Origin: Salminus brasiliensis | Lineage: Eukaryota > Chordata > Actinopteri > Characiformes > Bryconidae | Assembly: GCF_030463535.1 (NCBI RefSeq) | Contig: NC_132893.1 | Coordinates: forward strand, 18,026,027-18,090,026 | Direction: 5' to 3' | Length of the DNA stretch: 64,000 nt | Shown: piece by piece, positions 14,501-64,000 of the stretch | Layout of the letters: every line of letters starts with the position of its first letter | Numbering within the stretch: the stretch's first letter is position 1 | Position numbers and translations under genes: made by a program | The notes under the pieces: generated by a model | What the model was told of the DNA's origin: nothing | Seen by the model: only the letters and a program-made list of their open reading frames with translations | Database searches by the model: none

Positions 14501-15041
14501 TAACAAAAAATATTTTAAAAAGTAGCACACAAGGAGTCTTGAACTTGCACCCTTGATTATCTATAGTTTACAGTTTTCCATGGTACTATTATACATAGCA
14601 GTAGTTCTCTTTTCCTGTGTGTTGCCACTTGCCAGGGCTGGAGCAAAAAGAAAATCTGAAGTGCCCGGAAGCCCCTAAGAAATGGTTTTTCGCACACTCG
14701 CATCTTATTTACAAATATATATATTATATTATATTATATTATATTATATTTAAGGAATCATTCTGTCAAAGGCTCTTTAGAGAACCAGAAGTGGTTCCTA
14801 TGTGGCAGGGGTCACCAATCTAATCCGTCAGTGGTCAGTGTGTCTTCACCTACACCTGGTTCTGCTAGTTTCCCCTGGCAAATGATTTCCTTTATACAAC
14901 AGGTTGTTTCCTCCATGCAAGCTGATTGGTGGAGAAGCGTTCAAACTGTGCTAACTTTTAGAGATTAAACTAACTCCGCTGCACGCTGTTGCTATAAATC
15001 GCATAATGAACCAAGATGTAACGTGAATGCCCTGAGCAGTG

Positions 15042-15078
<37 letters not shown>

Positions 15079-18000
15079 ACCCCCCCCCCTCTCTCTCTTC
15101 CCTGTGGCTCTTTCTCTTCCCTGTGGCTCTCATTTCAGTTTTCATATGTGCTATGCTTCGATTTAATCTTAAAAACAAAATAGTATTGACACAGAGTCAA
15201 TAAAAATTGACCTAAAACAAAACAGAAAGGATTAAGACAAGAATACATAATAAGAAGAAGAAACAGATTGTGACTGTGAACAACAAACGGACAAGAAAAA
15301 AAAACTGAGTGGAAAACAAGAGTTTAATGTGAGTGAGTGGAGTTTCTGTGACATATCAACAAGCTCTAGGTCGTGTGTTGTTGGGAAATAGCAGCTGTTG
15401 TTTCACAGAAACGCACTCCCTCACATGTTCTATTGCTTTTATACAACAGTTCGAACAATAAATATAGTAAGAAATACAGAAACATAGCATTTAATGTGTT
15501 TAATGTTGGCAATACTCACGATAACACACTTCCTCTCATGCTTTGTTGCATCAATATGAGATGAAATGAAATGAAAACTTAACTAGGCCAAGCAGCTATA
15601 CTGACGCTTTGAATAATAATGGTGACCCATGTTTTATGGCATCGCTGTAAAGAACCCTTTTTGGGACATGTACTTGGAGCTGGGCGATATGGAAAAATCA
15701 CAGTATTTAAAGGCATGTTTACAATATACTATATTTATCGCAATATTTCATCATGTAGACAAAATGCCTCAGGCAAACTGCTGCCTAAATACTCTCCCAT
15801 ACTGAGTTCTCAAAATATGCTGCACTCCATTTAATTAAATAAGGCTGATTACACTCTTTGTAATGAAATGTGCAGATAATCAGTGCTCTTTAAGCACTGA
15901 CAATATCCATAAAACACTCATAAAATCATATTGTGTACCACAATAGCAAAATGTATTACTATACACAAAATATTGACGTATTGCCCTGCTCTACATATAC
16001 TTTGAAGAGGATTGCAGTCCAGCAAAATCTGAAATCTTGAAGGAATCACTTTTTTTGACTCATTACACACAATAACACTCTCATAATAACTCATTATAAA
16101 TCATTTCAGTCACTTTACATCTGAGGATTAATGCGGCTCTAGTGTTTGGGTGGAGGTGGAGATTAAGGGCAGAGGGAAGGGAGAGGCCCGAATGTGTTCT
16201 GGTCACGAAGGTGCTTTACAAAAGTTATGTGCAAATGTATGGTGTAAAATCACAGCACAAGAATTGTGACTCACATCTTTGTATTGGCTGTTTCTGCTTT
16301 TCAGATCTCAGACTTTGGCCTGGCCAGGTGGAACGGCTTTGCTCGGAACGATGACATCAGCCGCGACGGGTTCTGCGGCACTATCGCCTACCTGCCTCCT
16401 GAGAGGATCATTGAGAAGGACCGGGTCTCTGACACCAAGCATGATGTGTACAGGTCAGCCATTATGGCTCAGTCATAGTTTACATTTTTAGCAGCACAGT
16501 TTTGATCGCAGTCATCATGTGTTTCCACTACAAGGTTCTGTGCCATCTCTAATTGAACATAGCATAGGATGAGCCTTCTCCTATTGGATTCAGTCGTATT
16601 GTATTAACCTTTGGTCTATCTTTGTTTTTGTTTTGTTTTTTAATGAAGCTTTTCGATCGTTATCTGGGGAATTCTCACACAGAAGAAGCCATATCAAGGT
16701 AAGATTCCAAGCAGTTGTTGTGTATCTCACAAGTCATTTCCTTGTGCTCTCTGTACTGATAATGACCCGATTAACCTGTCAGCATCAACTTTGCATCTAA
16801 GAAATATTTCCAAGAGAACATCCAGACCTGTCATATTTCAAATGTACTTTATAACCCTTGTGTTGTCTTAAGGGTCAAAAATGAATGCCCTTGTGTGGGT
16901 TTAACCCTAACCCTAACCCAAAACTGAATGACATACAACATAAAAGCTGTACACCACCAGGTCATTTTGACCCTTAGGCCCAGGTGGTAACAGAATGTTT
17001 GAGGATTGTCTTTATGTACTGCATAAAATGACCAAATAGACTCACCGGTCTAAAACCAGACCACTAGCAACCTTATTTGTTGTTTTCCAGCTTTACATTA
17101 TTAGGTCAATTGAGCGTCCTTGCATTCCCTTTACCCATCGCCCTATTTCTCCTGTTCAATAGAATTGCCGTTTTTCGCTGGATTGACCCTTGTAGACAGT
17201 TTAAGAAACATTATATCGAGACGTGATCGAGACGTAACTGCCTAAATGATGACGCAGACTTTGACATTTTGGTACTTTGAGCTCTAATTTCGTAATCGAA
17301 CAGCAGTGTCTGACTTTTCATGGAAGCTTAAATCCCAGTACTGCTAAAAGCATGGAAGGCCAGTGTTTGGCTGTAGGAGAGCCTGGTTGTTTTGTCCAGA
17401 GGTTCCAGGGCAGCTCCGAAGAGGCAGACTGCTGTGTGTCCTTAGACTTATCAGATAAAACATTAGCGGTTAAGGTGCTCCATTTGTTTTTGGCCCTGGT
17501 GACTGGAATCAGTGAATCTACGTGCAGGTCGTCCGTTTATAGCTAATCAAATATACCCACTGGCCTTTGTAACGGTACATGTTGGAATAGCTGCAGTCGA
17601 AAAACAGCCGTCTGTGTTTGTTCTGTGTTGCTGGTTGGCACAGGAAAGGGTGTGAGAACAAAAGTCTCCTGGAGAGGAAGTAATAATCTTTTCCAGTGTT
17701 GAAGCAGGGACTTAAAACATAAAAACATCTCCAAGCATTCAGAAATCCTCATTTCTATGGCTCAATTCAGCAAGGTTAAGCTCCCTTTGTTTAATTTATT
17801 TCCTGGCTAGCTTCGGCTAGCTGTACGTATGAACTTTCTCCCTACGCAGGGCAACACTGCACGCGGTGCATATCAACTGTCTTGTAAACTGAAACCTTGG
17901 TGACTTTGTTCCCTTCGCTTGCACTTCTCTGCGAGTGCCACGTTTCAGAGCAAGTCATAGCAGTGGTCTAAAAGCTCTCTCCCTTGTTTACTGTGCTGTG

Positions 18001-21000
18001 GTCCATAGGGGAGAACAACATTCTGCACATCATGGTGAAGGTGGTGAAGGGGGTGCGTCCGGAGCTGAGCGTCGTGCCCCGCAGTCGACCTCAGGCATGC
18101 TCCGGTTTCATGGCCCTCATGCAGAAGTGCTGGAGTGCCTCTCCAGATGACAGGCCCAGCTTTCAGGGTGAATATCTCACATCAGTCATTCCAATCTCAC
18201 TGCATACTATCTGTTTCACAGGGGAAGGGTTTGCATTGCAGAAATGATTTAGAACTTTCATGAGAAAGATAAAAAAGATACATACAAGATTTCCTCAAAT
18301 GCAGTCAAAACATTTGTGTCTGATGTTTGACTTTTTTAAGATTTGCTTTAGAGCTACAAAGATAATGTAGCTAACAAGCGGCGGCAGGGGGATTGATACT
18401 GAAGTAACAATACTTTGGATCTTGATGTTTCTTTTTGAGAATCAATAAAGTATTTTCTTTAATATATGAATTTTTGTTAAGCTAATAGTCAGCTAATGTG
18501 GCCCTAATACAAAGGCTTTCAAATATGTTTTCCTAATAAGCATCGGTCAAACCGCATCACACAATTGGCTGAAACGTTCTCCAGCTGATATGTCAAAAAG
18601 AATTAATTGAATGTACAGCAGTTTATGTGAACTGAGAGTAAAGATGTCTGTCCTATATTTGATGTTTCAGAGTACCATGATTTTGTCAAGTGTGTACAAC
18701 CACTCCTACTGTTTCCACAGAGATTACATCTGAAGCTGAGGAGCTGTGCTCTAAACCCCACGACGAGTCCAGAGTGTCGGTGTCTGAGCCAGATTGCTCC
18801 CCCTGCGCAGCTCTTCCGGCCTCCGAACAGGTACCACTGACATACTAGCACACAATCCAAAGCAGTGTATGTTAGATACCTTAGAAGTTAGAAGCTACAA
18901 TCCTTCTCCTATTTCTCAACCATCCATTTTTTTAAATTATTTTAAATTTTTGGCCTTTTTGTCCTTTGACAGTTCCTCATCTTGCTTTTTGATTTCGTCT
19001 TGTCTCATTCGTCTGTCTTATATTTCACATTTATCTCATGTTCCTGTCTTGAGTACAGGAAGGTACACTTATTTTTTTTAAATGCTGCCATTGTGCAACA
19101 TGTAAACTTAACAAACTGCATGAATGCTTATGTATGACAGATTGGTACAATGAAGCCCAGCCATTGAGTAACCGTTTGGCATTTGTTGTGCGCTTTAAAC
19201 GCGTACCACGAATGTTTAGTCCAGATGATGACATCCCTTTAGGGTTAGGGAATGCAACTGTGCAAGATTGTTTACCCAGACATTTCCTGTATGAGGAGAA
19301 TGCATTGTGTGAAGAATATGTCCTTGACTAGCTGTTGAGTACTCACAGAATAAACTGTCATTCACAGTTCAATTCATTCATCAGTTAAAATAAATAAATA
19401 AATAAATAAATAAAATAATACATTTATTCAGTTTTATTCTGTTTGACTTTAAAGAAGCAATCTTAGTAATGGTATGCATGCAAAACACATGTTTTAAAAT
19501 GTACAGATTCAAAACCTTTTCTCCACACTCTTAAATCTTTCGAAACAAATCATTCAACTTGAGCAGAAATCATTTTGAGATATATTTCCTCCAGAACCAG
19601 AATAATTTTTTGGCTTTTGCAGACACTCTGGCAACAAGAAAATGGACATTCACTTAACCCTGGGAACCCAAAACTCCCACCAACAGACTTTACACCAACC
19701 AACAGACTTAAACACCAACAAGAATGGAATAAAAAAGGGCAACAGTTAACTTTTCAGGATATCAACCCTTTCACTGGAAAATAAAAAAGCAAAGACCAGC
19801 CTTGCTAACTGCAAGACTACAACAAGCCAGATAGAGCAGACAAGACTCATACATATGTGTCTGGTCAAAGGCAATGACGCACCAACAAGCCAAAGTGCAA
19901 AACTCAATATCAACAAACAAGAAACATGTGTAGAGGAAAAATATGATACAATTCCAAGAGGCACTGTGTGTCTTGCAGTAGTTATACACAATATATACCA
20001 ATTAAAAATACAATATAATAAAACATAAAATAAATCAAATCTAATTAATCTATATTTTTACCTTAGGTAAAAAGGTAACAACGATGCAGAAGCGGTGCCT
20101 GTAAATAACCTGGCATAAATAAATAAATAAAAGACTAGCCCCCTCAGGTGTCCATCCCAAAGTGCATGTCTTTATGCTCTCACCTTCAAGATGCATCATC
20201 AGAAAGGGGGTTTCTGATCTTCAAACCAGAAAATCTCTCTCTAGAGACAATTGTAGCACCACTGTACTATAACCCTAGGCATATTTTTTCATCAAGTGTT
20301 AAGTGCTTTGTTTTGAGCAGAGTGCCCCTTTAAAACTGTACTGAACTAAACCCGTTTTTGCTTTATTTATGTGAATTATGTGACCTGTCATAAGCCACAC
20401 ATGCACAGCTCTGACAGTGCCTGTACCTAAGCACAATTTTTGTGTTTTATTCATCTACCAACATATAACTAATATAAACTTTTATCTGCATGTACTATCA
20501 TTTTCCTTTCTGAAATCTAAATGACTAAATGCAGTGTTTTCTATTATCTATTATAGCCCAAGGAGCAGAAGCCAGTGAGGCCAAAGTCAGCCATGTTGCC
20601 AGAGAAGGACTGCAGCCTCTCTGAGCTGCTGAGCCAGATTGACTCTGGCATCTCCCGTAGCTTTGACCACGTTAAGGAGGACTGCCTAGAGAGCAAGGAC
20701 AACACCAGCAAGAGACTGTCGGGTATTTCCTCCGTGGACTCGGCCTTCTCCTCCCAGGGCTCCATCACACTCTCGTTTGAGAGAGAAAACTCGAGCAATG
20801 GTAAGACAGGAGTCAGACTTTTAACCACACACGAATCACAAAATCTAGTTAGAAGTAACAAATAATTTGTAAATATATATATATTATATTTTTATAAATG
20901 TGTGCAGTTGTGATTCTGGACTTCATCAGTTGAAACAGCTTCTCAGTTTTAAGCAGGAAAATCACCAAAGTCTAAAAATGTGAAATTTGTTGTGGCCAAA

Positions 21001-22338
21001 AAAGACATTAGGCTCAGTTGCATATTTGTTAGTGAAGCAATGCCTTTTTGCATTTTCCAGACTAATTCTATGTTTATTTTCCATTTCGCAGAATCAAGTG
21101 AACTGCAGAAGAAGAAGCTCTGCGATGCCATCCGCACCGAGGACATCGCCAAACTGATGAAGATCCTCCAGCCACAGGATGTCGACCTGCTCCTGGATGG
21201 GGGTGGCAGCCTGCTCCACTATGCTGTGAGCCTGGCCAACGAGGAAGCAGTCAAGTTCCTGTTGCTGAACAACTGCAGCGCAAATCTGCCTGATTCTCGT
21301 GGATCCACGCCCCTCCACTTGGCCGTTGAGAAGCGGCTGAAGAGTGTGACTGAGATCCTTCTGGGCCGCAAGAGCACAAACGTGAATGCCAAGGACGAGG
21401 ACCAGTACACGCCGCTGCACTTTGCTGCACAGAACGGTGACGAGGCACTCACCCGGCTCCTCCTCGACCGCGGCGCCACCATGAACGAGGCGGATGCTCA
21501 GGGGCGCACACCAACGCACGTGGCCTGCCACCATGGCCGGGAGAACGTGGTGCGTGTCCTGCTGAGTCGTGGTGCCGATGCGCATGCCAGGGGCAAGGAC
21601 GAGTGGACAGCTCTACACCTGGCTGCCTGGCAGGGCCACCTGGGCATTGTTAAGCTGCTGGTGAAGCAGGCTGGCGTCAACGTGGATGGGCAAACGGTGG
21701 ACGGGCGAGCTCCACTGCACCTTGCCTCCCAGCGGGGACAGTACAGGGTGGCCCGTGTCCTAGTGGAGCTGGGGGCAAACGTGGGCCTAATGTCCGCAGG
21801 CCTAAGCACACCGCTTCACGTGGCCGCTGAGACTGGCCACACCAGCACATCCCGATTGCTCCTCAAACACGGCGCTGACCTCCAATGCCGCACAGCTCAG
21901 GGTCTCACACCCCTGCATCTAGCTGCCCGGAGGGGTCACCTGGCCACTGTCAGGATGCTTCTAGAGGAGGGTGCTGACCCACATGACACTGACCACATCC
22001 AACGCACACCTTGCCACCTGGCGGCTGAGGGGGGCCACTGCCAGGTCATGGAGGAGTTGCTGCAGAGGTGGCCAGAGGCGGCCGCCACACCAGACGAAAG
22101 CGGATTAACACCACTCCATCTGGCTGTTCGCGGTGGATACACGGACGCCATCTGCCTGCTGCTGAGCCATGGTGCGGATAGCGCTCCACCAACCCCCTCT
22201 GTGTCTGAGCCACCCACAGAGAGCCTGATCACTCAGATGCCCGGGACGCTCCGCAGGAAAGTAGTCATCCTGAAACTCGCTGAGCAGGAGCCAACCCAGG
22301 ACTCCACAGAATCGCTGTGTGCGACTGCTAACTGCTGA
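4850..22338 (+). CDS. ripk4: Receptor-interacting Ser/Thr kinase 4 (RIPK4), 8 coding exons
   Basis: Spliced coding sequence: 4850-5031, 13228-13519, 16305-16453, 16649-16698, 18009-18167, 18721-18830, 20557-20800, 21092-22338. This is 2433 nt, 810 residues plus stop, and every junction is GT-AG and in phase. Mammalian RIPK4 is about 784 residues. Kinase domain at about 24-280: glycine loop GSGGFG (29-34), VAIK-type lysine K51, catalytic HLDLKPAN with D143 (the HLD form is normal here), DFG at 161-163, PPE at 189-191. Linker at about 280-400 with conserved [12 protein letters not shown] and SSVDSAFS. Ankyrin repeats at about 410-757, with many TPLHLAA-type cores. From family knowledge, the kinase drives epidermal/periderm differentiation (IRF6, PKC and Wnt links) and acts in the cytoplasm. 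Identity is very secure; the exact transcript ends are not. Confidence 0.97.
6680..6800 (-). repeat. Family B MITE, diverged fragment
   Basis: GATGAATGGACCAATACAAA followed by TGCTCTTAAATAACTGAAA matches, in the same order, the minus-strand copy at 35401-35605 (GATGAATAGACCAATAGAAA, then TGCTACAAATAACTTGAAA). The terminal repeats are not visible, so this is a decayed fragment. Confidence 0.5.
7652..7753. repeat. Compound microsatellite (GAT)n, (TGTA)n, (TG)n
   Basis: Three adjacent simple repeats: GAT at 7652-7673, TGTA at about 7696-7726, then TG to 7753. They lie inside ripk4 intron 1. Confidence 0.9.
9860..10010. repeat. Degenerate TTAGGG-like array
   Basis: Scattered TTAGGG and GGGTTTAGGG copies (for example around 9893-9920 and 9965-9990) mixed with TTTGGG and TTAAGGG variants. 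This is either an old interstitial telomere-like tract or a G/T-rich low-complexity stretch. A short complementary CCCTAACCCTAACCC occurs at about 16904-16919. Confidence 0.5.
10080..10370. repeat. Probable dispersed MITE-like repeat (GGTTCTTT family)
   Basis: Contains repeated AAGGGTTCTTTG and AGGTTCTTTATGG blocks and ends with GCACCTTTATTTTCAAGAGTG, a pattern I associate with abundant fish MITEs. Boundaries are approximate. No second clear copy was aligned in this window, so confidence is limited. Confidence 0.35.
12935..13175 (+). mobile_element. tRNA-derived SINE, family S1, copy 1
   Basis: Starts with a box A-like stretch (CACAGTGGCTCAGCCTGG) and a box B-like CAGTTCGAAAACC, followed by a body reading TTTGCCATCAGCATCCAGAG and GAGAGCACAATTAGC. 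The same order is seen at 60084-60310 (TCTGCCATCAGCAGCCAGAG, then CCAATTAGCC). It ends about 50 bp before the acceptor of ripk4 exon 2. It is not a functional tRNA gene. Confidence 0.7.
13228..13519 (+). CDS. ripk4: ripk4 coding exon 2
   Basis: Encodes K61-K158: the helix-C region, hinge ([10 protein letters not shown]) and catalytic loop HLDLKPAN with D143. The acceptor is TTCTCAG|GG and the donor AAA|GTAAGT. Third positions are strongly GC-rich compared with the flanking introns. Confidence 0.96.
14125..14275 (+). repeat. Direct repeat pair within intron 2, unit 1
   Basis: Shares CTCATTTCAG, GAGGATCAATG, then GCTCTAGTGTTTGGGTGGAG and the following GTGGAGATTA with the segment at 16100-16250, in the same orientation and order. 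The two units lie about 2 kb apart. Confidence 0.75.
15042..15089. repeat. (TTTA)n microsatellite followed by a C10 run
   Basis: TTTA units at 15042-15076, then ten consecutive C at 15080-15089. Confidence 0.9.
15674..15995 (+). repeat. Dispersed AT-rich repeat, family A, copy 2
   Basis: Begins GAGCTGGGCGATATGG and preserves the block order of copy 1 (GTATTTAAAGGCATG, CTGCACTCCATTTAATTAAA, TTTGTAATGAAATGTGCAG, GCACTGACAATAT, final TTGCCC). This is the better-preserved 5' end. The sequence resembles widespread fish repeats beginning GGCGATATGG. Confidence 0.7.
16100..16250 (+). repeat. Direct repeat pair within intron 2, unit 2
   Basis: Partner of 14125-14275. The central 30 or so bases around GCTCTAGTGTTTGGGTGGAG are almost identical; the flanks are more diverged. 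It ends about 55 bp before the acceptor of exon 3. Confidence 0.75.
16305..16453 (+). CDS. ripk4: ripk4 coding exon 3
   Basis: Begins with ISDFGLAR (D161 of DFG) and continues through the activation segment [12 protein letters not shown] to DTKHDVY. The acceptor is TTTTCAG|AT and the donor CAG|GTCAGC. It ends two bases into codon 208. Confidence 0.96.
16454..16648 (+). other. ripk4: ripk4 intron 3 (195 bp)
   Basis: Short intron with a T-rich tract (TTTTTGTTTTGTTTTTTAATGAAG) before the acceptor. Nothing else was seen. Confidence 0.9.
16649..16698 (+). CDS. ripk4: ripk4 coding exon 4 (50 nt micro-exon)
   Basis: Completes S208 and encodes [16 protein letters not shown]. The acceptor is AATGAAG|CT and the donor AAG|GTAAGA. 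It is too short to stand out as an open frame, but is required for phase and matches kinase subdomain IX of RIPK4. Confidence 0.94.
16699..18008 (+). other. ripk4: ripk4 intron 4 (1.3 kb)
   Basis: No coding signal. It contains CCCTAACCCTAACCC at about 16904-16919, a telomere-like triplet; otherwise it appears unique. Confidence 0.8.
18009..18167 (+). CDS. ripk4: ripk4 coding exon 5
   Basis: Encodes [15 protein letters not shown] to DDRPSFQ, the C-terminal lobe of the kinase including the conserved CW and RP of subdomains X-XI. The acceptor is CCATAG|GG and the donor CAGG|GTGAAT. Confidence 0.95.
18168..18720 (+). other. ripk4: ripk4 intron 5 (553 bp)
   Basis: AT-rich. No repeat family or coding signal recognised. 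The acceptor tract is ACTGTTTCCACAG. Confidence 0.85.
18721..18830 (+). CDS. ripk4: ripk4 coding exon 6
   Basis: Encodes [13 protein letters not shown] to PASEQ, the start of the linker between kinase and ankyrin domains. The donor is CAG|GTACCA and the exon ends in phase 0. Confidence 0.93.
18831..20556 (+). other. ripk4: ripk4 intron 6 (1.7 kb)
   Basis: AT-rich with an (AAAT)n run at about 19386-19416. Short open frames (for example 19134-19331) show no family resemblance and no splice coherence. Confidence 0.8.
20557..20800 (+). CDS. ripk4: ripk4 coding exon 7 (linker with [12 protein letters not shown])
   Basis: Encodes residues 315-395. It holds two blocks conserved with mammalian RIPK4: [14 protein letters not shown] (D343) and [13 protein letters not shown] (D375). 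As I recall, the equivalent aspartates are caspase cleavage sites in mammals. The block is Ser-rich. The donor is ATG|GTAAGA. Confidence 0.95.
20801..21091 (+). other. ripk4: ripk4 intron 7 (291 bp)
   Basis: AT-rich. An open frame runs through it into exon 8 by chance. The true boundary is set by ATTTCGCAG|AA and by phase. Confidence 0.88.
21092..22338 (+). CDS. ripk4: ripk4 coding exon 8 (all ankyrin repeats)
   Basis: Single 1247 nt exon for residues 396-810. It starts [14 protein letters not shown], conserved [13 protein letters not shown], then about ten ankyrin repeats with cores such as [10 protein letters not shown] (466-475), [45 protein letters not shown] and [12 protein letters not shown]. 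The tail after about 757 is Pro/Ser-rich ([13 protein letters not shown]). Stop TGA at 22336-22338. Confidence 0.97.
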
Positions 22339-23911
22339 GATAGAATAGGACGGTGGCCTAATAGACTTTACAGTGATTCTCTCTGTCAGGACATTCTGTT
22401 TCCCCCTTGAAAATATTTGGAACATTTTACTAATAGGTGGCGTTTTACGCCTTACGTTACATCTGACATAAGCCTACATTAACATTCATATCAAGGCTTA
22501 TTCCAACAAGCATAAGTTGTCATATTGGCTGCATTGAAGAATTTTTATGTCATTCACCTTAACAAGTGTTATGCTAACTGATGCATGTTGGAAAGAGCCT
22601 TTTGTCGTCACTTGTCATTAAAGGCTTATGTAGTTGTCATGTAGCCTTATGAGCACTGCCCTTCAGCCACTGTCATGAGAAAACCTTATGTCTCAGAAGC
22701 AGTAATAATTACAGGAAAAGTAATTCCAGTGTTTTTGACCTGGTCTTTGTCTGCCTCATCTGTAGCACCTTTCTCTTATTTTTATCAACTCTATGATACA
22801 GATACAGTAGATGGAGATAAGGTTATAAAACACTGTAGTATCTGTAAACAAAACAAAAAATCGAATTCATCATGAAATATCTACACACTTTATTATGGAC
22901 TATTACACACACGGGAAAAAGAGGGATTTCACTTCACCATTTCTGAGTTCTGTATATAATGTAATTATATGGTTGTGGTCATTACAATGTAGTTACCTCT
23001 CCGATTTTCATGGACTTTGGGCTCTAAAAGACTATTTCAGCAGTAATGAACGTATTTCTGAATGGGAAAAGGGCCATGTATATATTCCAACTGTACATAG
23101 AAACTTATATATACTTATTATTGCGTTTAACTTACCATAGTCATACTTTGCCTTTTTTTTACATTTATATGTTTGTCCTTTGCATATTTGGTTTATTTTT
23201 TGCCATGTCATGTATTTCCCTATTTGTTGCTTATGCTTGTGCTGCCAGATCAGACCTGTAATTCATGTGGCCTCCAGGCAAACTTCCCCTATTTTTCTCC
23301 TTCTTTCCTTCTCCTGGCATGTTTGTACTTTTTTTCTTTTTTTCTTTTTTTTTTTTTAGGACAAGCAGATTGTGCCTAGCACAACCAAATCTTGGTTTTC
23401 AGAATAGCAAGCCCTTATTAAAAACTCTGGTCAGTGTATCAGCACCTGCGCCATCCCCCCCATACCTGATATCCTTGCAGTATTTCAAGGCTAAAATCCA
23501 GAAGGTTAATTATACCATTACAACAAGCTTCTGTGTATTATGACAGACAGGAGCGTGTGTAGAACCACTTGGCTCACACCATGGGAACAGGGCCTGGGGG
23601 GGATCACAGGTGCTGTATGGATAGGGAGTAAAGGGTGGGGGGCATGGGGGCGGAAGGGTGGAGACTGTACACTGTGAATACCCTCATGTCAAGGCCGTTG
23701 GCCAATTCCTGTGACCACCTTATCTTTTCATCGCTCTGTAAAACCACAGAGCCGTGCCTTACTGACGCCACATGAAGCAGAGCTTTCACAACCCCCCAAT
23801 TTGAGACGCTTGGAGTGGAACTGCCAACTTCTTAATTACTAGGTATTTCCATCCTCTGTTTGCGGAGAACCACTGAATTGACTGGTAAGCTCTGTGTGAT
23901 GAGAGGCTTAG

Positions 23912-23915
<4 letters not shown>

Positions 23916-23945
<30 letters not shown>
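23916..23945. repeat. (TG)n microsatellite
   Basis: About 15 TG units between ripk4 and the minus-strand gene. Confidence 0.9.
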
Positions 23946-23949
<4 letters not shown>

Positions 23950-24346
23950 TGTTCTTAAGTGAGAGTGTATTGAGGTGAGGGCACTTCAACATATATTTTT
24001 GTAGCACTGGTTAATTCACTGCTACACGATCCATCTCTGTCCTCAGTAGCATTAAGTGTATAGTAGTCCTTTTGTTTGACTCTCCTGCAGCATTGCTTTA
24101 ACATTTATTTGCAATTAGGTCATGTTTTTTTGTATGCAGAGTTCTTTCCATGTACCTATAGTGTTTGCACAGTTTCACTTTTGTATTTGATGGACAATTA
24201 AAGTACATCATGTGCCTTAAATGAATAGCCGTCCATGTTTTTCTTTCGTTAATCAAGCAACACAGAAAATGGGAGAAAATAAGGCACCTCTTGCATAGTA
24301 TCATCTCCACAGGATGGAAATAAGAAAAATCATATTGTAAACTGTA

Positions 24347-24383
24347 AATAAACTGTAAATAACAAACAAACTAAACAAATAAA
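24347..24383 (+). terminator. ripk4: Distal ripk4 poly(A) signals
   Basis: Two AATAAA hexamers (24347-24352, 24378-24383) in an A-rich stretch. These are the strongest canonical signals downstream of ripk4, but they lie 2 kb past the stop codon. Confidence 0.4.
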
Positions 24384-24393
24384 CTAAATAGAA

Positions 24394-24399
24394 TTTATT
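24394..24399 (-). terminator. Poly(A) signal of the minus-strand repeat-protein gene
   Basis: TTTATT on the + strand reads AATAAA on the minus strand, 53 nt past the TGA stop at 24454-24452. The position suits a short 3'UTR. Confidence 0.65.
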
Positions 24400-24451
24400 T
24401 GATATATCAATGACACATGCTCATGAATTTAAACAATGTGACACACAGCCA

Positions 24452-26647
24452 TCACAGAACTGTACGGCCATCACAGGACTGTGTACAAGTCTCTGGAGCC
24501 ACATGGTCTAAAGGGTAATCTTGAGTTGGTGGAACTCTCATTGAGTCTATGTGCACATTGGCTTCTCCAAGCTCTGGTTCTACAGGAGGCTGAGAAATCT
24601 CAGGCTCGCATTGGAAGAACCTTGTGGTATCTTGCCAGGATGTGACCTTGGAGAGTTCAGGGTCTGCTAAATCTGACCAATTGGGAAGGTTCTGAAAGTT
24701 AGGGTTATTAGGGCACAGTTGACCATAATTATCCATAGCACAGAAGACATCCATGGTAGGAGCTGATTTAATTGTAGAAACAGGGCCATTCCTGAACTCC
24801 AGGAAGTGCTCAGTTTGTGCCACCAGATCCACCCGGTCTGAAGAGTGATATTTAGTTGCCAAAGGGTGAACTCTCATTGACCCTGTGTCTGCATTGGCTT
24901 CTCCAAGCTCTGGTTCTACAGGAGGCTGAGAAATCCTAGGAAGTTCTGGGTCTGCTAAGCCTGACCAGTTGTGAAGGTTCTGAAAGTTAGGGTTATTAAG
25001 GCACAGTTGACCATAATTATCCACATCATAGAAGGAATCCATGGTAGGAGCTACTTCTATTGCAGAACGAGGACCATCACAGAACTCAGCTCTCTCCTGG
25101 AAGTGCTCTGTACAGGCCACCAGATCCATGTGGTCGGAAGAATGATATTTTGTTGCCAAAGGGTGAACCTCTGTGGCCCCTATGTCTGCATTTGCTTCAC
25201 CGAACTCCAGTTCTACAAGAGGCTGATAATTCTCAGATATTTTCGCCTCAGGCTCACAGTGGAAAAGCCCCAAGGTGTATTCTATGGCTGTGAGTTCAGG
25301 ACACCTTGGGTCCAGTAAGCCTGACTCATTGTTAAGGTCCTGAAAGTTAGGGTTAGTAAGGCACAGTTGACCATAATTATCCACATCATAGAAGGAATCA
25401 ATGGTAAGAGCTGCTTCTGTTGTAGAAACAGGGCCATCACAAAATTCAGCTCTCTCCAGGAAGTGCTCCGTACCGGCCACCAAATCTGTATGGTCTGAAA
25501 AGTGATACTCAGTCACTGTGGGGTCAACTCTTATTGGCCCTGTGTCTGCATTGGCTTCTTCAAGCTTCGGTTCGAAAGGAGGATGATGAATCTCTGATAT
25601 TTCAGCCGGAGACCCACAGTGACAGAACCTTGTGTTGTCTTCCAGAAATATCTCAGGGAAAATCTCAGGGAGCTTTGGATCCACTAAACCAGGCAGTTCA
25701 CTAAAGTGATCCACATCATAGTAGGAATCCATGGTAGGAGCTAGTTTTATTGCAGAAACGGGTCCATCACAGGACTCACAGGCCATTAGATCCATGTGAT
25801 CTGAAGAGTGATCATTCACTGAAGGCTGAACTCTCATTGACCCTTTGTCTGCATTTGCTTTACCAAACTCTGGTTCTACAGCAGGCTGAGAAATCTCTGA
25901 TATTTCAGTCTGAGGCTCACACTGTACAAAACTCATTGGCTCTGTGTCTGCATTACTCTCTCCAAGCTCCAGTGGTACAAAATGGGCCTTGGGCTCATGC
26001 TGGAAGAACATCATAGCATCCTCCAGGGATGTGACTTGAAGGAACTTCGGGTCCTGTAAAGCTAATCCATCACCAAAGCTCTGAAGGCCAGGGTTAGTAA
26101 GGTGGGTAGGAACCTGGGGCTTGTTGGAAAGATCATACATTACATCCAGTCCATTGGGGTGAGCTGTAGCAGGAGCTTCTTGCAGGTCCTGGCTTCTGAG
26201 AAGGCCAGGTGTGGGCAGTACAGCCACACTGTAGCTAATCTGGGGGTAGTTCATATATGGTGGTGCCTCTTCAAAATAGACTATACCTATTCCCTGGACT
26301 GGAGCCCAGTTTGGCTGTGGATAATGAAAGCTGGCTGGGTCTACAACTTGATGTCTTGTTTCCTGACACCCATAATAATGGTATCCAGGCTGATTTACCA
26401 TTCCCTGGGAATTGTGAAACCACTGTGAAGTCTGACCATCATGATGCTGGCCCCAGTATGGCAACCAGCTGGGGACGATTTGAAGACACTCAGTGGAGCA
26501 TATCTGGGAAGTCATCTGGTCTGCATGAGGTTCTCTCATAACCGTGTTATAAAGCTGAGCAGCGCTGCAATGCCACCCTCCCTGTGACTGTTCTGCCACA
26601 TATGGGCGGTGAGTCACCAAGATGGCTGGCTCCTTTGGGGAATTCAT
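24452..26647 (-). CDS. Unrecognised 731-aa tandem-repeat protein, single coding exon
   Basis: One open frame of 731 codons on the minus strand, far above chance length in AT-rich DNA. The start is fixed: an in-frame TGA lies two codons upstream (26653-26651), and TTCTGTTGGCAG just before it is a plausible 3' splice acceptor (AG at 26656-26655), so a non-coding leader exon is likely. Residues 61-139 are aromatic-rich (4 W, 9 Y, 3 F in 79 residues) with Gln, Pro and His. From about 184 to the end, five to six imperfect repeats of roughly 100-120 residues follow, acidic and with no predicted transmembrane segment. Anchors are EPELGEANAD (starting at 258, 359, 479, 578, 690) and APTMDSFYDVDNYGQL (TMDS/TIDS at about 305, 415, 535, 631). 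No enzyme motif, signal peptide or known domain is recognised. The aromatic N-terminus loosely recalls fish Bucky ball/Velo proteins, but this is speculation. Confidence 0.8.
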   Translation of the reverse strand: MNSPKEPAILVTHRPYVAEQSQGGWHCSAAQLYNTVMREPHADQMTSQICSTECLQIVPSWLPYWGQHHDGQTSQWFHNSQGMVNQPGYHYYGCQETRHQVVDPASFHYPQPNWAPVQGIGIVYFEEAPPYMNYPQISYSVAVLPTPGLLRSQDLQEAPATAHPNGLDVMYDLSNKPQVPTHLTNPGLQSFGDGLALQDPKFLQVTSLEDAMMFFQHEPKAHFVPLELGESNADTEPMSFVQCEPQTEISEISQPAVEPEFGKANADKGSMRVQPSVNDHSSDHMDLMACESCDGPVSAIKLAPTMDSYYDVDHFSELPGLVDPKLPEIFPEIFLEDNTRFCHCGSPAEISEIHHPPFEPKLEEANADTGPIRVDPTVTEYHFSDHTDLVAGTEHFLERAEFCDGPVSTTEAALTIDSFYDVDNYGQLCLTNPNFQDLNNESGLLDPRCPELTAIEYTLGLFHCEPEAKISENYQPLVELEFGEANADIGATEVHPLATKYHSSDHMDLVACTEHFQERAEFCDGPRSAIEVAPTMDSFYDVDNYGQLCLNNPNFQNLHNWSGLADPELPRISQPPVEPELGEANADTGSMRVHPLATKYHSSDRVDLVAQTEHFLEFRNGPVSTIKSAPTMDVFCAMDNYGQLCPNNPNFQNLPNWSDLADPELSKVTSWQDTTRFFQCEPEISQPPVEPELGEANVHIDSMRVPPTQDYPLDHVAPETCTQSCDGRTVL
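24455..26098 (-). repeat. In-frame coding tandem repeats (about 290-360 bp period)
   Basis: The coding repeats are visible at DNA level. On the + strand, TGAAAGTTAGGGTTATTA followed by GGCACAGTTGACCATAATTA recurs near 24690, 24980 and 25341. Spacings of about 290 and 360 bp match the loss or retention of a FFQCEP-containing block. All length changes keep the frame. The C-terminal copies are the most alike, suggesting recent duplication or gene conversion. Confidence 0.9.
26210..26608 (-). other. Segment coding the aromatic, low-complexity N-terminal region
   Basis: Encodes residues 14-146 of the minus-strand protein. Motifs include RPYVAEQSQGG, WLPYWGQHHDG, PGYHYYG, FHYPQPNW and PPYMNYPQISYS. 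Such Y/W/Q/P-rich sequence is typical of prion-like or self-associating regions. It lies outside the tandem repeats. Confidence 0.7.
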
Positions 26648-26656
26648 CTTTCAGCT

Positions 26657-27970
26657 GCCAACAGAAGCCAGAATAGTTGGAAATTAGCTCTGGCTGTACA
26701 TTGGAAATATTCCAACGTAATATAACCTCCTCACTGAAGTACAGTGTAAAAATTAAACTAGCGTAAGTGTAAAAATTAAATTACCTGTTAACAACAGATC
26801 GTCCCACGTAAGAGGATTTGGGATTGTTCAGCAATCAGGCCTTTCTCCAAGTGTGAACGATAAGCAGTGTTTCAAACCAATACATCTGTAAACATTCAGT
26901 TTCTATGGAAACCATATACAGAATTCCACATGCCAAGATTCTCCAGTCTGGTCAATTCACAGTTCATACAACTGACTGGTCTTAAGGAAAATTCCACGCC
27001 CTGCCCCAAGATCTTGTAAGACCATTAATTTCCAGCCTCAAGACCAAGAATCTACTTGAGTACTAAAACTCATCAACAAAAATTCAAAATGAATGTTTTT
27101 ACAACCAAAATCAAACCACAAGTCCATTCACGCACTTCACGAACTTCTGCAATCTGGCTAAACAACAGTGATGAACCTTCTTTGTACTGTACAGGCTCTG
27201 TTATCAATTCATTGTGGTGAGCCAGACCCATTCTTTCAACTTCCTTCCTGATACACACTGTTCACACACCCTGCACTTCTTCAGGTGTGTATGTGTATTG
27301 TATGACTCACTAAGACCTACTAAAGGACACTTTTACAGAGCCGGGGACTTGTCTGTTTGAAGTGATGCATGCGGCTCCAGGGTCAGCTCTATAACCCCTT
27401 TGGAATTGCGACATCTGTACATAGAGTAGATTTCTATCATACTAGAAGAGTTGCCTTGGGGGAGGGATATTGCACATTGGAGCTACAAACTGTCAGTGGT
27501 GGTTGGAGGGTTATTTGCAGTGGTCTGCATGTAATGACAATTTAAACTAACATTTTATTCAATGCATGCTGATTTCTTCTCTCTCAGTTATTAAAGTGAG
27601 TTGATGTTAAATGGTCTTAATCATGGAAAATGAGTAAAATAAACATTGCTAAGCATCCCTTACTCCTCACTTGATATGCTCCACATATGTTCATAGTGAA
27701 GTTGTAAGGAGTGTTTTAGCCCCTGCCTTTTGAATACAGAGCAGTCAGTAACAATTGTAAGCAATAACAGACTAAGGGCTAGGGCTTGTTCACATGACAT
27801 GAAAGGCTGGGTGATGAAAATTTCAAAGACTTCTAAACACAGAATTTCATTAAAAGAGTGCCTCTTCGGGCTTGTGTTGCAGCCAGTGGTAAAGGGGACA
27901 TTTCACTGATAGTAAAGAATGAGTTCAATAAAACCAGCAAATTCTGGAAGCAAACATCACACCTCTAAAA
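26657..27970. other. Region upstream of the minus-strand gene
   Basis: Expected to hold the promoter and leader exon of the minus-strand gene. No clear TATA box or donor/leader pair could be chosen. No coding signal seen on either strand. Confidence 0.4.
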
Positions 27971-27974
27971 AAAA

Positions 27975-28200
27975 AGCTAAAGATGAAAAGAAGATGGCTT
28001 CCAAGGCAGGATAACGATCCTAAAACTACCTAAAGAAGCGCAACCTGAAGGTTTTGCCACAATCCTCGCGACCACCTGACCTAGTCGTCATCAAAAATCT
28101 GTGGATAGATCTCAAAAGAGCAATGCATGCTAGAACTGGCTCAAGAATCTTACAGAAACACAAGCCTTTTGCAGGGAAGAATGGGTGAAGATCCCCAAAC
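27975..28200 (+). pseudogene. Tc1/mariner transposase C-terminal relic
   Basis: Conceptual translation with frame breaks gives DNDPKTT, then PPDLVVIKNLWIDLKRAMHA, then RILQKHKPFAGKN and EEWVKIPKQE. This matches the order of the Tc1-type C-terminus (DNDPKH, SPDLNPIENLWxDLKR, EEWAKIP). Stops and frameshifts show it is dead. Earlier parts of the transposase are absent. Confidence 0.75.
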
Positions 28201-28237
28201 AAGAAGTTCTTGTTTGGGGGATCTTCACCCATTCTTC
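28176..28237. repeat. Near-perfect 30-bp inverted repeat with one-base spacer
   Basis: Left arm 28176-28205 starts GAAGAATGGGTGAAGATCCC. Right arm 28207-28237 is its reverse complement with one extra G. The left arm is the EEWVKIPKQE codons of the Tc1 relic, so the right arm is an inverted duplication of transposase sequence. Confidence 0.95.
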
Positions 28238-28269
28238 ACTGTTACCTGCTACAAAAAAGCATTTCATCA

Positions 28270-28506
28270 CTATCCAATGAAAAACATGTATTCCAAAAAG
28301 ATGACTTTACAAGAGAAGGCAGAACTCTTCTTAACTTTGAATGGAAGTCAATGTAAAATAATCCTTTATTCCAAGTAATTTAGACCATGTCTATTGGTCC
28401 ATTCATCCAGAATTATTTACACAGTGTACAGAGCAGCGACAGGGCTCAAATGATGGAGAAAACTAAAAATGGACAAAAATGGAGACGCATGTTTTTCATT
28501 GGACAG
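28270..28506 (+). mobile_element. Family B MITE, best copy (237 bp)
   Basis: Bounded by terminal inverted repeats CTATCCAATGAAAAACATG (28270-28288) and CATGTTTTTCATTGGACAG (28488-28506), pairing at 18 of 19 positions. The internal motif TCTATTGGTCCATTCATCC, then ATTTACACAGTGTACAGAGC, recurs in copies at about 30480 and 35401 and as a fragment at 6680. No coding capacity. Confidence 0.85.
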
Positions 28507-29079
28507 CAGTCATACACAAGCTGTGATACTTGTCAAAGGCTATGTTACTAACTACTGACCATGCAGGGGGCCGTTTATTTGTGTGATTTTTAAACTGTAA
28601 AAGATGGAACAGGTGTACTCTTGCTTAAAATTATGAAGAAATGTGTCATCTTTCACTTCATGCTTTTTGGAAATCAGGTTGTTTTTCAATTTAAGAGAAA
28701 ATTTGGAGGAACCTCTTAAGGCTTGGAGAAAGCTTCCAGAAAAGGTCCATTTGAAGAACCCCTTAAAGTTATACTTTTAACAGTGCAGTAACAAACCCTT
28801 TTGCCCATGCATTTTCATCCCATTGTAAGTCTTAAAGGCACAGTAACAAAAAAAAAGTCAGTTTACTTCTAAGGAATATTGGAAATGTATTGGAAATGAA
28901 TGACAGGACAGTGAGTCATGTGCTAAGAAATGTTGGTTTTGAAACATTAACCTGCACAAACCACACAAGGCAGGGTAACGAAAATGCACAATGCAACCAA
29001 ATAACACATCAACAACAAATAAACAAGAAACATTTTATAGTAATCAACTAAACACACTATTACAGATTATATGAATAGT
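28507..29079. other. Intergenic, no gene seen
   Basis: AT-rich. Contains GGAACCTCTTAAGG and GAAGAACCCCTTAAAG at 28709-28770, possibly the same GGTTCTTT-type family as near 10.1 kb. No coding signal. Confidence 0.5.
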
Positions 29080-29210
29080 AATGGGTGGTACAGTGACGCA
29101 GCAGGTAATGTGGGTGCTGCGCAGCTCCTTGGGTTGTGGGTTCGATCTTTGCTCTGAACACACAGCACGTGACCTCAGACAATGCTGCAGTGTTTGTAAG
29201 TGTGTGTCAC
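29080..29210 (+). mobile_element. tRNA-derived SINE fragment
   Basis: GGGTGGTACAGTGACGCAGC followed by AGGTAATGTGG resembles the head and box A of fish tRNA-derived SINEs. GTGGGTTCGATCTTTGC (29136-29152) is a box B-like stretch. The 3' body is short and degenerate. Confidence 0.55.
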
Positions 29211-29351
29211 TGGCTCCAACATATCAGCTTTACAAGACAAAGACAAACTAAAGACCTGGAGTCTCTTCATCTGTTCTTCAAAACTGGCAGAACATGTCTT
29301 ACCACCTATGAGATGGTGTCTTGGAGCACAGGAACAGGCCAAGACACGTGA

Positions 29352-29480
29352 ACACACACACACACACACACACACACGCACGCATCACTTAGCAGTAGAT
29401 GAGTGGGTGCTTAAGGAGAGATGGTAAGTGTCAGTGATTTATGACCAGTTAGAGGGAACACACACACACACACACTCAGA
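29352..29480. repeat. (CA)n microsatellites
   Basis: CA runs at 29352-29377 and about 29459-29475. Confidence 0.85.
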
Positions 29481-30061
29481 CAAACAAACACATGAATGCG
29501 TTCTCCTGACCTCATGGAAAGTTACTCATTGACAGACTCTACAAACAGTTTGATGTGGCCGTGCTGCCCTTGCCCTTCCTACCTATTTCTTACCTTCCTT
29601 AATTCAAGGTTCAGAAAACTCAGCCTTTAGTATTCATACTGCCAGTTGCCATTAAACTTGTCTGGCCGTTTCCCTGAGAAAAAATTAAGCCTAGTCTATG
29701 ACTAAATGACAAAGTCCATGGTGACGCAGTCCGGGTCTAGGAATTGGTGTGGTCCGGGAATGACAAAATGAAAACATGGCAACTGGGTTTGTAAGTGTTT
29801 GCCACTTAGGCCTTGTAGTCAGTCACAGCTGATTTTGCTGTGAGAGCTACTGGCAGCAACCTCCTATAACTGTAAGGTTGTGGGTGTGATCGACTGCCAA
29901 GCTCTGCGACATGCAGGTGTTTTGTCCAAGTGGTTTTGTCGTGTAAAGGAGGAAACATGACCAGACTTGAAGTACATTCCATGAGTCTTGACAAATAAGT
30001 CATTAGCTAGAAAATCTTTTTCTGGTGCCATCCTGTGGACAGTCACTGACAGTCACAAGTG

Positions 30062-30293
30062 TATACTTATAAGGTAAAGGTGCGCGTATTTGTCACTGTA
30101 CTATGTACAGTGTGTCCTCCACATTTAACCCATCTGTGGTAGTGAACACACACACACACACACGTGAGTACAGAGAGAGTAAAGGGCCTTGCTCAAGGGC
30201 CCAACAGTGGCAGCTTGCCGAGCCCGGGAATTGAACCCACAACCCTGTTATCAAAAGCCTGGCGCTCTAACTGCTGAGCCACCACCGCCCCTT
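30062..30293 (-). mobile_element. tRNA-derived SINE, minus orientation
   Basis: Read on the minus strand it begins GGGGCGGTGGTGGCTCAGCA with box A TGGCTCAGCAGTTAGAG (30281-30265) and box B GTGGGTTCAATTCCC (30240-30226), then CCCTTGAGCAAGGCCC. Correct box spacing and a non-tRNA tail identify a SINE, not a tRNA gene. A (CA)n tract is embedded at about 30149-30164. Confidence 0.8.
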
Positions 30294-30479
30294 ATATGTG
30301 TACAGCACTGTGTCGTAAGACATCTGATGAAATGATCTTGGCACAAAGTGTTTATATGTTCAAAAAAAACACAAACACCTCATTTAAATAAATACAAATA
30401 AGAGTTACATTGGCTGCCTGGTCCCTATTGCATATGATATACCAAAACTAAATAAATATACTATATATAATTGCTGTTG

Positions 30480-30692
30480 CATCATAATGAAAAACATGTA
30501 CGTCCAAAATAGTGACTTCACAGGAGAAGGCAAAAATATCTTCATTTTCGAATGGAAGTCAATGTAAGATAAGAGTTTAATCTGAGAAATTTAGAGCCTT
30601 TCTATTGGTCCACTTATCCAGAAATATTTACACAGTGTACAGAGCAGCTACAGGGTTCAAACAACGGAGAAAACTAATGACGAACAATCGGA
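30480..30692 (+). mobile_element. Family B MITE, copy 2
   Basis: Starts AATGAAAAACATGTACGTCC and shares AATGGAAGTCAATGTAAGAT, TCTATTGGTCCACTTATCC and ATTTACACAGTGTACAGAGC with the copy at 28270. The right terminal repeat is truncated (AATCGGACAG). Confidence 0.75.
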
Positions 30693-33200
30693 CAGAAGCG
30701 ACATACTAATCTTAATACAGGTTTGGCAGGTTAGTACACAAAATATATATATATAAAATCCTAATGCATTTTGTACCAACAGGAAGTAATCAAGGGTTGC
30801 TTTGTCAACATGCATCACTGCAAGTCCTCAAGCCACCACCCTTATCGCTTGCATTGTTATGCTCCATTTTTATGTAATTATTGTTCTAGACATGAGTAGC
30901 TCCTCCCTTTCTGTTTCGCATTGCATTGTGGGACAATAGTGTCTATCATAACAACTTTCTCAATCCGCGTTCTTAGCTTTCTGTATTCCTGTGGCCTTGT
31001 AAAACATCATCAGTTGCAGCCCAAGTGCAACTGCTCCATTCAAAAGTTCACATCTAGCCAAGCCCAGTCTGAATGCTCGGATGTGCTGTTGTTCTGACAT
31101 GACTTGTCTAGACTTGGCACTGCCAAATATCCAGAATGGAGAGTACTCAAACTGTCCCAAACTTTGCCTAGTTTGTAGTGCTGTCCAAAAACATAAGGCA
31201 GAATTTTCAGTGCACTATCATAGTGCTCTATATAGTGGTCTGGATTTTTACATGTAAGAGATATGGGCACAGGGCATCGTTTAAGACACAGCTTTACGCT
31301 GTTCTTCCAGAGGTCACATGAAACTCCACCCAAGTTACATAGTGCAGTTCCGGCCTTCCGGCCCAGCGTGGCATTGATAGAGTCTCTATGCTCCCAAGTA
31401 CAGTCAGTGGAGCATCAACATGACACTGAAGCTCTTATTTTAAGGTACAAAATGTTACATGGTGTTGCTTTAAAGTAGGTTGGTTAAAAATATGAGATGC
31501 TACGTTACTGCTGAATTGCACAGAATATAAAGTGTTTGGAAAAGAGACCACAGGCGAATCGTGCTAGAGAAATCATGTCATTTCCATAGCTCCCCTCGAG
31601 GACACCCGAGAATTTACAATTACCATCCAATATCTCGTTTAGCTCATCAGTCCTTCATCAAAGTTAATCATGCGAGCTGCTGGTGGAATTGACAAACCCA
31701 TACAGTGTCTGGAGTTCAATTATTTATAGATTACAGTTTTTGCTGATAGCTATGCACAGGTTACATAAGGCTGATGGTAACAGAGTTAAGGTTTGCCCAA
31801 TTTTAACGGTAGCGCTGATTTAAAAAAATAATAATATCACAATTAATGTATTAATCTTCTTTTCTGATTTATCCTGGTGAGGGTTGCAGTGGGCCCAGAG
31901 CCAACCCAGAATCATTGTGAATACTGAATGTAAGTATAAGTGTAAGGTTACTGAAGACATACACACATGCAGCTGATTAGGCCACTGTGATTATTTACCT
32001 TTAATTATTTATGAATAATTTTGGACACATTAAGAACAGCGTACATCCAAGACCTTATCACATCCATAAGCAGTTACTCTGTCTCACCAGAAGGAGGCGC
32101 CCCAGCTCTAATGATGGCGTATCAGACTGAAAATAATGCGGTCAATCGTCAGTTACCCTGTTTTTGCCAATGGTCTATTAGCATATCTCACAAATATGTA
32201 CCTAATGTACCGTGAGAGTGAGAGCACTGTCCATTTTCTAGTGAGTGGGCTGACCTCGTTATTTATTTATCTGTACTATAATAAAATCACCCCTGTAAAA
32301 GAATCAGACTAGGCGCGTATCAGTTTCCTAGGGGCTTAGGTTAGCTGTGGCCGCTAGCGATACTGCAAATCAGGTGAAACGTCCTCAGAGAGAGGAGAGA
32401 GACAGAAAATTAGGGTGTTTTACTTGGCCAAGAGGGCCATTAATACCACGAAACTGGCACATGATAAAGGCTGATGCTGTAATTTGATCCATTTGGACTG
32501 AAGGCTAAAGGCTGTTTAAATAAAAAGGACTGCTAATGTGAAAGTAATCTAAATGTTGTACTTGTGGATATTGTGATATTTTTCTATTATTATTTTTATT
32601 ATATGGATGGACGATTCTTGTGTTTAAGGGAAATCAGCCTGTCCAAGGAACGGCGATGACGCAATGGGCACCCTGGAGAAGTCCCCCTCTGGAGTTTCCC
32701 ATACAGGAACAGGCAGGTCTGGTCAGCTAAACACGATAATACCACACACCTACATATTTTATACATGTAAGTGTCTATAAAGTGATTATTATGTAATATG
32801 TGCGAGGAATGAGGAATACTGGACCTATTACCCTGCTAAAAGCAAAGGTGACAAATTACCAGCACGCTGTAGAGCACTGGACCGGCGTGGACTGTACCAT
32901 GTCATTATAACGTGCACAAGAAATGCATTATAAAACTTGAATAAAAATGACATTCTCATCCAAGATAACTTTGACATGACTAGAGAAATAATCTTACGAT
33001 TTGTATCTATATTGTATAATGTCAAATAATGTAAATACACGTATGCAATATCTTAAACAAATAAAAATAAATAAGCCCATTATAAAAATGATAAACACAC
33101 ACACACACGTATATACATTCATGTGTATATATAAATTTAAGTACAAAATAATAAAGAAAGACTTATTTGAAGAGCATGCAGTAATTTAAAAAGTAGTGTT
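30693..33200. other. Intergenic between the repeat-protein gene and eurl
   Basis: No coding signal on either strand. At about 31165-31260 there is sequence (GTGCTGTCCAAAAACATAAG, then GAATTTTCAGTGCACTATCA) related to the palindromic element at 49429. The rest is AT-rich and apparently unique, with a short (CA)n at about 33096-33108. Confidence 0.6.
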
Positions 33201-63229: not shown

Positions 63230-64000
63230 GTAAGCTTGCGAGTGCTGCTTGTCCTCTGAATCTACTTAGATAACATCCACATCAGCTAGTCTTCACTGTG
63301 TGTGTATGTGAATGTGTTTGGTGGTGTTTTCTTTTTTTTTTTTTTTTTAAACCTGGTTCACTTTAGAGGTTAAGAGATGACCTTTGCGTCAAATTGGTGT
63401 GAGCGCAGCAGATATGCATGTTGAGTACCATCACCAACGTTTTGTTGTGTTTTGCAGCAACAAGTCCTAGAATATGCATTGGATCGGGCTGAGGTACGAC
63501 GTCCGTGTTGGGCAACTCTTTCGTAGTTCATGATTCATCGTACGTCATTGGCAAAAGGTTGTGCTTTGTTTTTCGATCATGCTGAAGAATGTGTGTTCTG
63601 TGTCCAGTACATCGTCGAAAGTGCTCGACAACGACCGTCTAGGAGAAGGGTCTCTTCGAGTGGGAGGAAGTCGTTATATCAGAAACTTTATGAACTGTAC
63701 ATTGAAGAGTGTGAAAAAGAGCCAGAGTTAAAGGTAATACTAGCAAACCAGATTTGTTCTCATGTGCAGCTTTAAATTGCAGCATTTATAGTATTTTTAA
63801 AAAAAATATTCTTTGCATTTTTGCATTTTTATTTTTACATATTAGGGAAAATATGGACATTTGAGGTTTAATGTTTTTAACAGAGGAATGCACTCACAAA
63901 ATGCCACAATATGTTTTCTTCCCACAGAAACTTAGAAGAAATGTGAATCTACTAGAGAAGCTGGTGTCACAGGAGTCAGTCTCGTGCCTGGTGGTCAACC
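63227..64000 (+). CDS. supt20h: SAGA subunit SPT20 homologue (SUPT20H), 5' part, runs off the window
   Basis: Coding parts: 63227-63229 (ATG), 63458-63493, 63608-63733 and 63928 to beyond 64000, all GT-AG and in frame. The first 79 residues start [20 protein letters not shown], continue with [20 protein letters not shown], then [20 protein letters not shown] and [18 protein letters not shown]. This is nearly identical to the N-terminus of mammalian SUPT20H (FAM48A/p38IP), the start of the Spt20 domain. Known role: structural subunit of the SAGA histone-acetyltransferase co-activator in the nucleus, also reported to bind p38 MAPK. Mammalian proteins exceed 700 residues, so only about a tenth is present here. 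Confidence 0.95.
63458..63493 (+). CDS. supt20h: supt20h second coding exon (36 nt micro-exon)
   Basis: Encodes exactly [12 protein letters not shown]. The acceptor is TTTTGCAG|CA and the donor GAG|GTACGA. Too short to appear as an open frame; identified from phase and family similarity. Confidence 0.92.
63608..63733 (+). CDS. supt20h: supt20h third coding exon
   Basis: 126 nt, 42 codons, from [14 protein letters not shown] to EKEPELK. The acceptor is GTGTCCAG|TA and the donor AAG|GTAATA. An open frame continues into the intron for 14 codons only by chance. Confidence 0.95.
63928..64000 (+). CDS. supt20h: supt20h fourth coding exon (partial)
   Basis: [20 protein letters not shown] then LVVN, plus one base at the window edge. 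The acceptor is TTCTTCCCACAG|AA. Confidence 0.95.

Follow-up and report, generated by a model that had tools for sequence, protein, structure and literature searches.

A reading frame of 731 codons on the minus strand, at positions 24452 to 26647 of the window (the whole 64-kb stretch of DNA that we analyzed, C16:18026027-18090026), is very likely a real protein-coding gene. On balance, the explanation that accounts for it best is a fast-evolving gene of two exons—probably a short noncoding leader exon and a single exon that carries the entire coding sequence—that would encode a disordered, acidic scaffold protein. The general kind of protein, a fast-evolving disordered repeat protein, is familiar. 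If this gene is expressed and conserved, it would offer a defined place, adjoining otherwise well-known genes, in which to learn how a disordered repeat protein can lengthen and shorten in frame without losing its short core; if it is already catalogued as an uncharacterized fish protein, its repeat anatomy would be the new part.

Reading frame, coding evidence, and candidate leader intron

The earlier note, made from the sequence alone, had described an uninterrupted minus-strand frame with a stop just ahead of its ATG, a likely splice acceptor upstream, and an AATAAA 53 nt past the stop codon, and we recovered each of these elements. The frame (731 aa, 81.6 kDa) has no internal stop, an in-frame TGA lies at 26653-26651, one codon 5′ of the ATG, and the polyadenylation signal occupies 24399-24394 on the same strand. 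The acceptor, an AG at 26656-26655, is a fair one: by a simple weight matrix, it ranks in the top 3.4% of the window's minus-strand AG sites. The same matrix places a donor-like CAG/GTAATT at 26784 among the best 1.5% of GT sites on the minus strand and second between 26600 and 27700, with a higher score only at 27670. Paired, the two sites suggest that the 5′ leader may contain an intron of 130 bp (26655-26784, minus strand; donor CAG/GTAATT, acceptor TTGGCAG/C), within which inspection shows a branch-point-like GCTAAT some 30 nt upstream. Upstream of this intron, site scores and inspection point to a candidate noncoding first exon at 26785-26918 (minus strand), with a candidate TATATGG element, seen by inspection, at 26918 on the same strand. 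The label "single-exon" given previously therefore probably holds for the coding part but not for the 5′ leader, where the candidate intron would add an exon.

When 60 sequences of 64 kb were drawn from a first-order Markov model, their longest stop-to-stop frames averaged 164 codons and reached at most 221, compared with 731 here. Length alone, however, is weak evidence in repetitive DNA, because a minisatellite in the adjoining 10 kb (L002:5805-7479), where no gene is evident, has overlapping frames of low complexity that run to 495 and 528 codons. Other properties of the frame bear on its coding character as well: (i) its 3-base periodicity is 21.9, whereas 49 overlapping 2,196-nt segments of the window from 27 kb on average 1.1 and never exceed 3.7, and the ankyrin exon gives 14.0; (ii) the N-terminal 690 nt alone give a periodicity of 5.5 and the remainder gives 18.3; (iii) 166 N-terminal codons of this frame are not part of the repeats; and (iv) each of the five other frames across the same DNA contains between 24 and 57 stops. 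The CpG observed/expected ratio inside the coding sequence is 0.15, a low value that might fit a methylated gene body.

Repeat anatomy, protein character, and proposed function

The N-terminal segment (aa 1 to 166; 26150-26647) contains 19 Y/F/W, 18 Q, 18 P, and 10 H residues at a net charge of −7. Alignment of the repeats divides the rest of the protein, which like the N-terminal segment is read from the minus strand, into a diverged partial repeat, R0 (aa 167 to 254; 25886-26149), the full repeats R1 (aa 255 to 355, 101 aa; 25583-25885), R2 (aa 356 to 475, 120 aa; 25223-25582), R3 (aa 476 to 574, 99 aa; 24926-25222), and R4 (aa 575 to 686, 112 aa; 24590-24925), and a truncated repeat with the C-terminus, R5 (aa 687 to 731; 24455-24589). 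An earlier count of five to six repeats of about 100 to 120 residues is thereby refined to four full copies of 99 to 120 aa, flanked by the partial R0 and the truncated R5, and both anchors named for them, EPELGEANAD and TMDSFYDVDNYGQL, are found in the protein. The full repeats share a mean identity of 74%. As had been claimed, the frame is kept through every change of length: a free DNA alignment of the full repeats in their six pairings, terminal gaps dropped, has 18 internal gaps, and all are multiples of three, although these gaps are not independent, several of them being one event counted in several pairs.

Each full copy carries an acidic-aromatic core, which reads DSYYDVDHFSEL in one copy, DSFYDVDNYGQL in two, and DVFCAMDNYGQL in another. 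The pattern D-S-F/Y-Y-D-V-D-N/H-Y/F-x-x-L is present in three of the four, and its D-N/H-Y/F-x-x-L part in all of them. The F/Y-x-x-L core may also be read as an autophagy motif (LIR) or as a tyrosine-sorting signal; the underlying [FYW]xx[LIV] is a very common short pattern, which counts against the scaffold explanation set out below.

The protein is acidic, as previously stated, with a pI of 4.4. Residues 255 to 731 carry a net charge of −60 across 477 residues, and the charge-hydropathy line puts them on its disordered side, whereas it puts aa 1 to 166 and aa 167 to 254 marginally on the ordered side. The highest 19-residue mean hydropathy anywhere in the protein is 0.66. AlphaFold returned a mean pLDDT of 34.6 from four repeat sequences and of 30.5 from the full protein as a single sequence, with no residue above 50 in either model; given such shallow input (one or four sequences), this low confidence is weak evidence of disorder. 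We infer that the protein is probably intrinsically disordered as well as acidic.

The scaffold explanation combines these features as follows. In the product, an N-terminus rich in aromatic residues, proline, and glutamine would precede four to six diverged repeats that have an acidic-aromatic core. One partner would dock at successive repeats, displayed multivalently on a disordered acidic chain, the N-terminus would act as a sticky self-association segment, and the whole protein would function as an acidic adaptor or a multivalent scaffold, encoded by a gene that evolves fast and whose repeat segments would be gained and lost in frame. We put this mechanism of docking repeats and a self-associating N-terminus forward tentatively. 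A bolder extension of it is improbable, namely, that the protein is the founding member of an undescribed fish family of disordered organizers, in which the acidic repeats would bring together multiple copies of a partner, the aromatic N-terminus would drive condensation, perhaps in the germ line, and the number of repeats would differ from species to species.

The main alternative to a scaffold is an acidic transcriptional coactivator, in which the D-S-F-Y-D-V-D-N-Y-x-x-L cores would be tandem activation domains. The acidic and aromatic composition of the repeats would suit such a role, but the 731 residues contain neither a run of three basic residues (K/R) nor an LxxLL motif, and Pfam finds no DNA-binding domain in them; we regard this alternative as unlikely.

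Genomic setting and selection between repeat copies

The genes in this part of the window are ordered ripk4-like, repeat gene, EURL, and SPT20. To the left, on the plus strand, kinase and ankyrin exons (13187-22335), whose domain order we read as that of a ripk4-like gene, stand tail to tail with the repeat gene. To the right, on its 5′ side, lie an exon of EURL (C21orf91; 52076-52636, E = 1e-54) and the start of an SPT20 homologue (63527-63772, E = 7e-16). The window also contains a 28-nt inverted repeat upstream of the gene, at 28172-28241, with arms 93% complementary and 14 nt apart; a 185-nt repeat in two copies that are 80% alike (28292-28476 and 30503-30687); and, at 91-707, a minisatellite of 19/38-bp units with a 240-codon open frame (74-796).

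A dN/dS near 1 combined with many genomic copies, as in a transposon-derived satellite, had been named beforehand as a finding that would speak against a gene. A search of the 1.07-Gb genome (103 contigs) with the protein, in which the best three candidates were scored, gave one match at an E value of ≤0.001, its own locus, and the protein has no second match elsewhere in the 64-kb window. These results also bear on a retrogene or transposon-derived gene, an origin that would explain why the entire coding sequence sits within one exon. We consider it quite improbable: neither a second copy nor a parent gene was found in the genome at E ≤ 0.001 among the best candidates, the protein has no Pfam domain, and a leader intron is plausible. 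A transposon is further disfavored in that, of the listed repeats in 22339-31000 (12 direct families and 25 of 30 inverted pairs), just GT/CA tracts and an AT-rich element of 25 nt span the frame.

The earlier note had argued that retention of the frame speaks for selection, a claim that we examined by comparing the repeat copies with one another. Pooled over the full repeats, pN/pS is 0.587 (codon bootstrap, 0.46 to 0.77), compared with 0.625 and 0.728 when the reading is shifted by one base and by two. In star-tree neutral simulations (400 runs per transition bias), the observed pN/pS was reached in 0, 4, 17, and 47 runs at transition biases of 1, 2, 4, and 6, respectively. Simulated sets of four full repeats gathered 3.4 to 6.0 stops on average, and 3, 3, 4, and 9 of the 400 runs at the same biases were free of stops, as are the real full repeats. 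A codon model, evaluated on a grid from 0.4 to 0.8, fitted best at a dN/dS of 0.7; its log likelihood was −1160.67 when free versus −1162.96 at a dN/dS of 1 for four copies (p of about 0.03) and −1441.90 versus −1444.40 for six copies (p = 0.025), the p values having been worked by hand from these likelihoods. Variable columns are spread over the three codon positions as 50, 42, and 54 of 112 (p = 0.26), and the 14 pairwise dN/dS estimates include one undefined value and, for R4-R5, one of 1.09. The claim thus stands as far as the frame is concerned, whereas constraint on the residues is weak, with a dN/dS of about 0.7 at a p of about 0.03 and a one-base-shifted control close behind the true frame. 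Based on the codon model together with the frame-shift, column, and pairwise checks, the reading frame is maintained and the residues are held only loosely, as judged from the copies within this one sequence, and purifying selection on the residues of the repeats is weakly shown.

A dN/dS that is not far from 1, like the long minisatellite frames in the adjoining L002, would also be expected of an expanding tandem repeat whose open frame is due to chance, or to recent duplication of an open unit, and that makes no functional protein. Such a repeat is very unlikely here, in view of the 166 same-frame codons outside the repeats, the strong 3-base periodicity, and the combination of no stop with only in-frame gaps at about 26% divergence, where the other frames are interrupted dozens of times. 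A maintained gene for a loosely constrained repeat protein remains the reading that we prefer.

Comparison with known families

The earlier note recognized no known family, and searches of Pfam, NCBIfam, and PDB sequences likewise yielded no credible relative. In Pfam, the whole protein gave one match up to an E value of 10, unrelated and at chance level (E = 0.28), and aa 1 to 233 gave nothing at E ≤ 1; the two NCBIfam matches fell far short of their cutoffs (E = 0.0065, 17.2 of 180 bits; E = 0.13, 11.8 of 331 bits); and among PDB sequences, the protein matched nothing at E ≤ 10 and a profile of the repeats matched 3sdj alone (E = 1.4). None of the named families in the libraries searched shares the repeat. 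Viral contigs gave 3 pattern hits with the protein and 76 hits with the repeat alignment, and prokaryotic genome contigs gave 8 hits with the protein, none of them confirmed as a relative; because these collections hold viruses and prokaryotes, their silence means little. Rfam found nothing in the window at its gathering threshold, and a bacterial promoter scan, inapplicable to fish, returned one site against 1.9 expected. Our searches of open-access papers listed no report on this gene. POU2AF/OCA-B and hyosophorin-like egg proteins were considered and set aside.

Lineage-restricted disordered tandem-repeat proteins form a general class, with which the present protein shares the in-frame gain and loss of repeats and weak constraint on residues. 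A more specific comparison is with the germ cell nuclear acidic protein GCNA/ACRC, most members of which have an SprT-like domain. Some rodent members are without it, so that its absence is not decisive, and the repeats of GCNA/ACRC presumably differ from those described here. Our protein, which has neither an SprT-like domain nor any other credible Pfam match, is like GCNA/ACRC (PMC5098910) in being acidic, probably disordered, and fast evolving.

A first guess, prompted by the aromatic N-terminus and the acidic remainder, was that the gene is a diverged member of the bucky ball (Buc/Velo1) family, a germ-plasm organizer, now located beside ripk4; synteny and direct comparison with buc-like exons speak against it, and we give it hardly any weight. 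The layout is similar, since Buc combines an aromatic N-terminus with a mostly disordered, low-complexity remainder and fast evolution (passages of PMC6219760), and there are short look-alikes such as VTHRPYV beside VTHSRPFFYV. However, buc loci adjoin kbtbd2-avl9-lsm5 or rnf31-rnf152 in the loci covered by passages of PMC5080839, whereas the repeat gene sits between the ripk4-like gene, EURL, and SPT20, and the Avl9 matches fall on contig C26. On that contig, about 20 kb from the Avl9 matches and in the published synteny, three or more exons make up a buc-like gene (C26:27535142-27537454; L015:5142-7454). We take these exons to be buc-like from the BUVE motif together with the synteny; they contain the BUVE-like stretches HSRPFFYVQPP and GFHFGRP...QYPGYVVPH.

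Compared by BLASTP with the three C26 exons, the repeat protein gave best E values of 2.7, 0.012, and 0.85, the 0.012 match covering 33 residues within R3, outside the N-terminus. Against the BUVE-like region, represented by single sequences from one species—the exons of this same genome—rather than by a family profile, the score of the N-terminus was reached by 244 to 601 of 1,000 shuffles across six settings. Sub-tests gave 68 of 1,000 for aa 1 to 60 and 252 of 1,000 for aa 90 to 190, and the full protein gave 166 of 300. Of three ankyrin-exon controls, all unrelated, one outdid every test of the repeat protein (13 of 200). The repeat protein also differs from Buc in having tandem repeats of 99 to 120 residues and no RG dipeptide. 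Membership in the Buc family is therefore not supported, and the likeness appears to be one of composition. By eye, the buc-like exons on C26 are separated from the Avl9 matches by a long Kelch-like frame, and RNF31-like frames lie across Avl9 from them.
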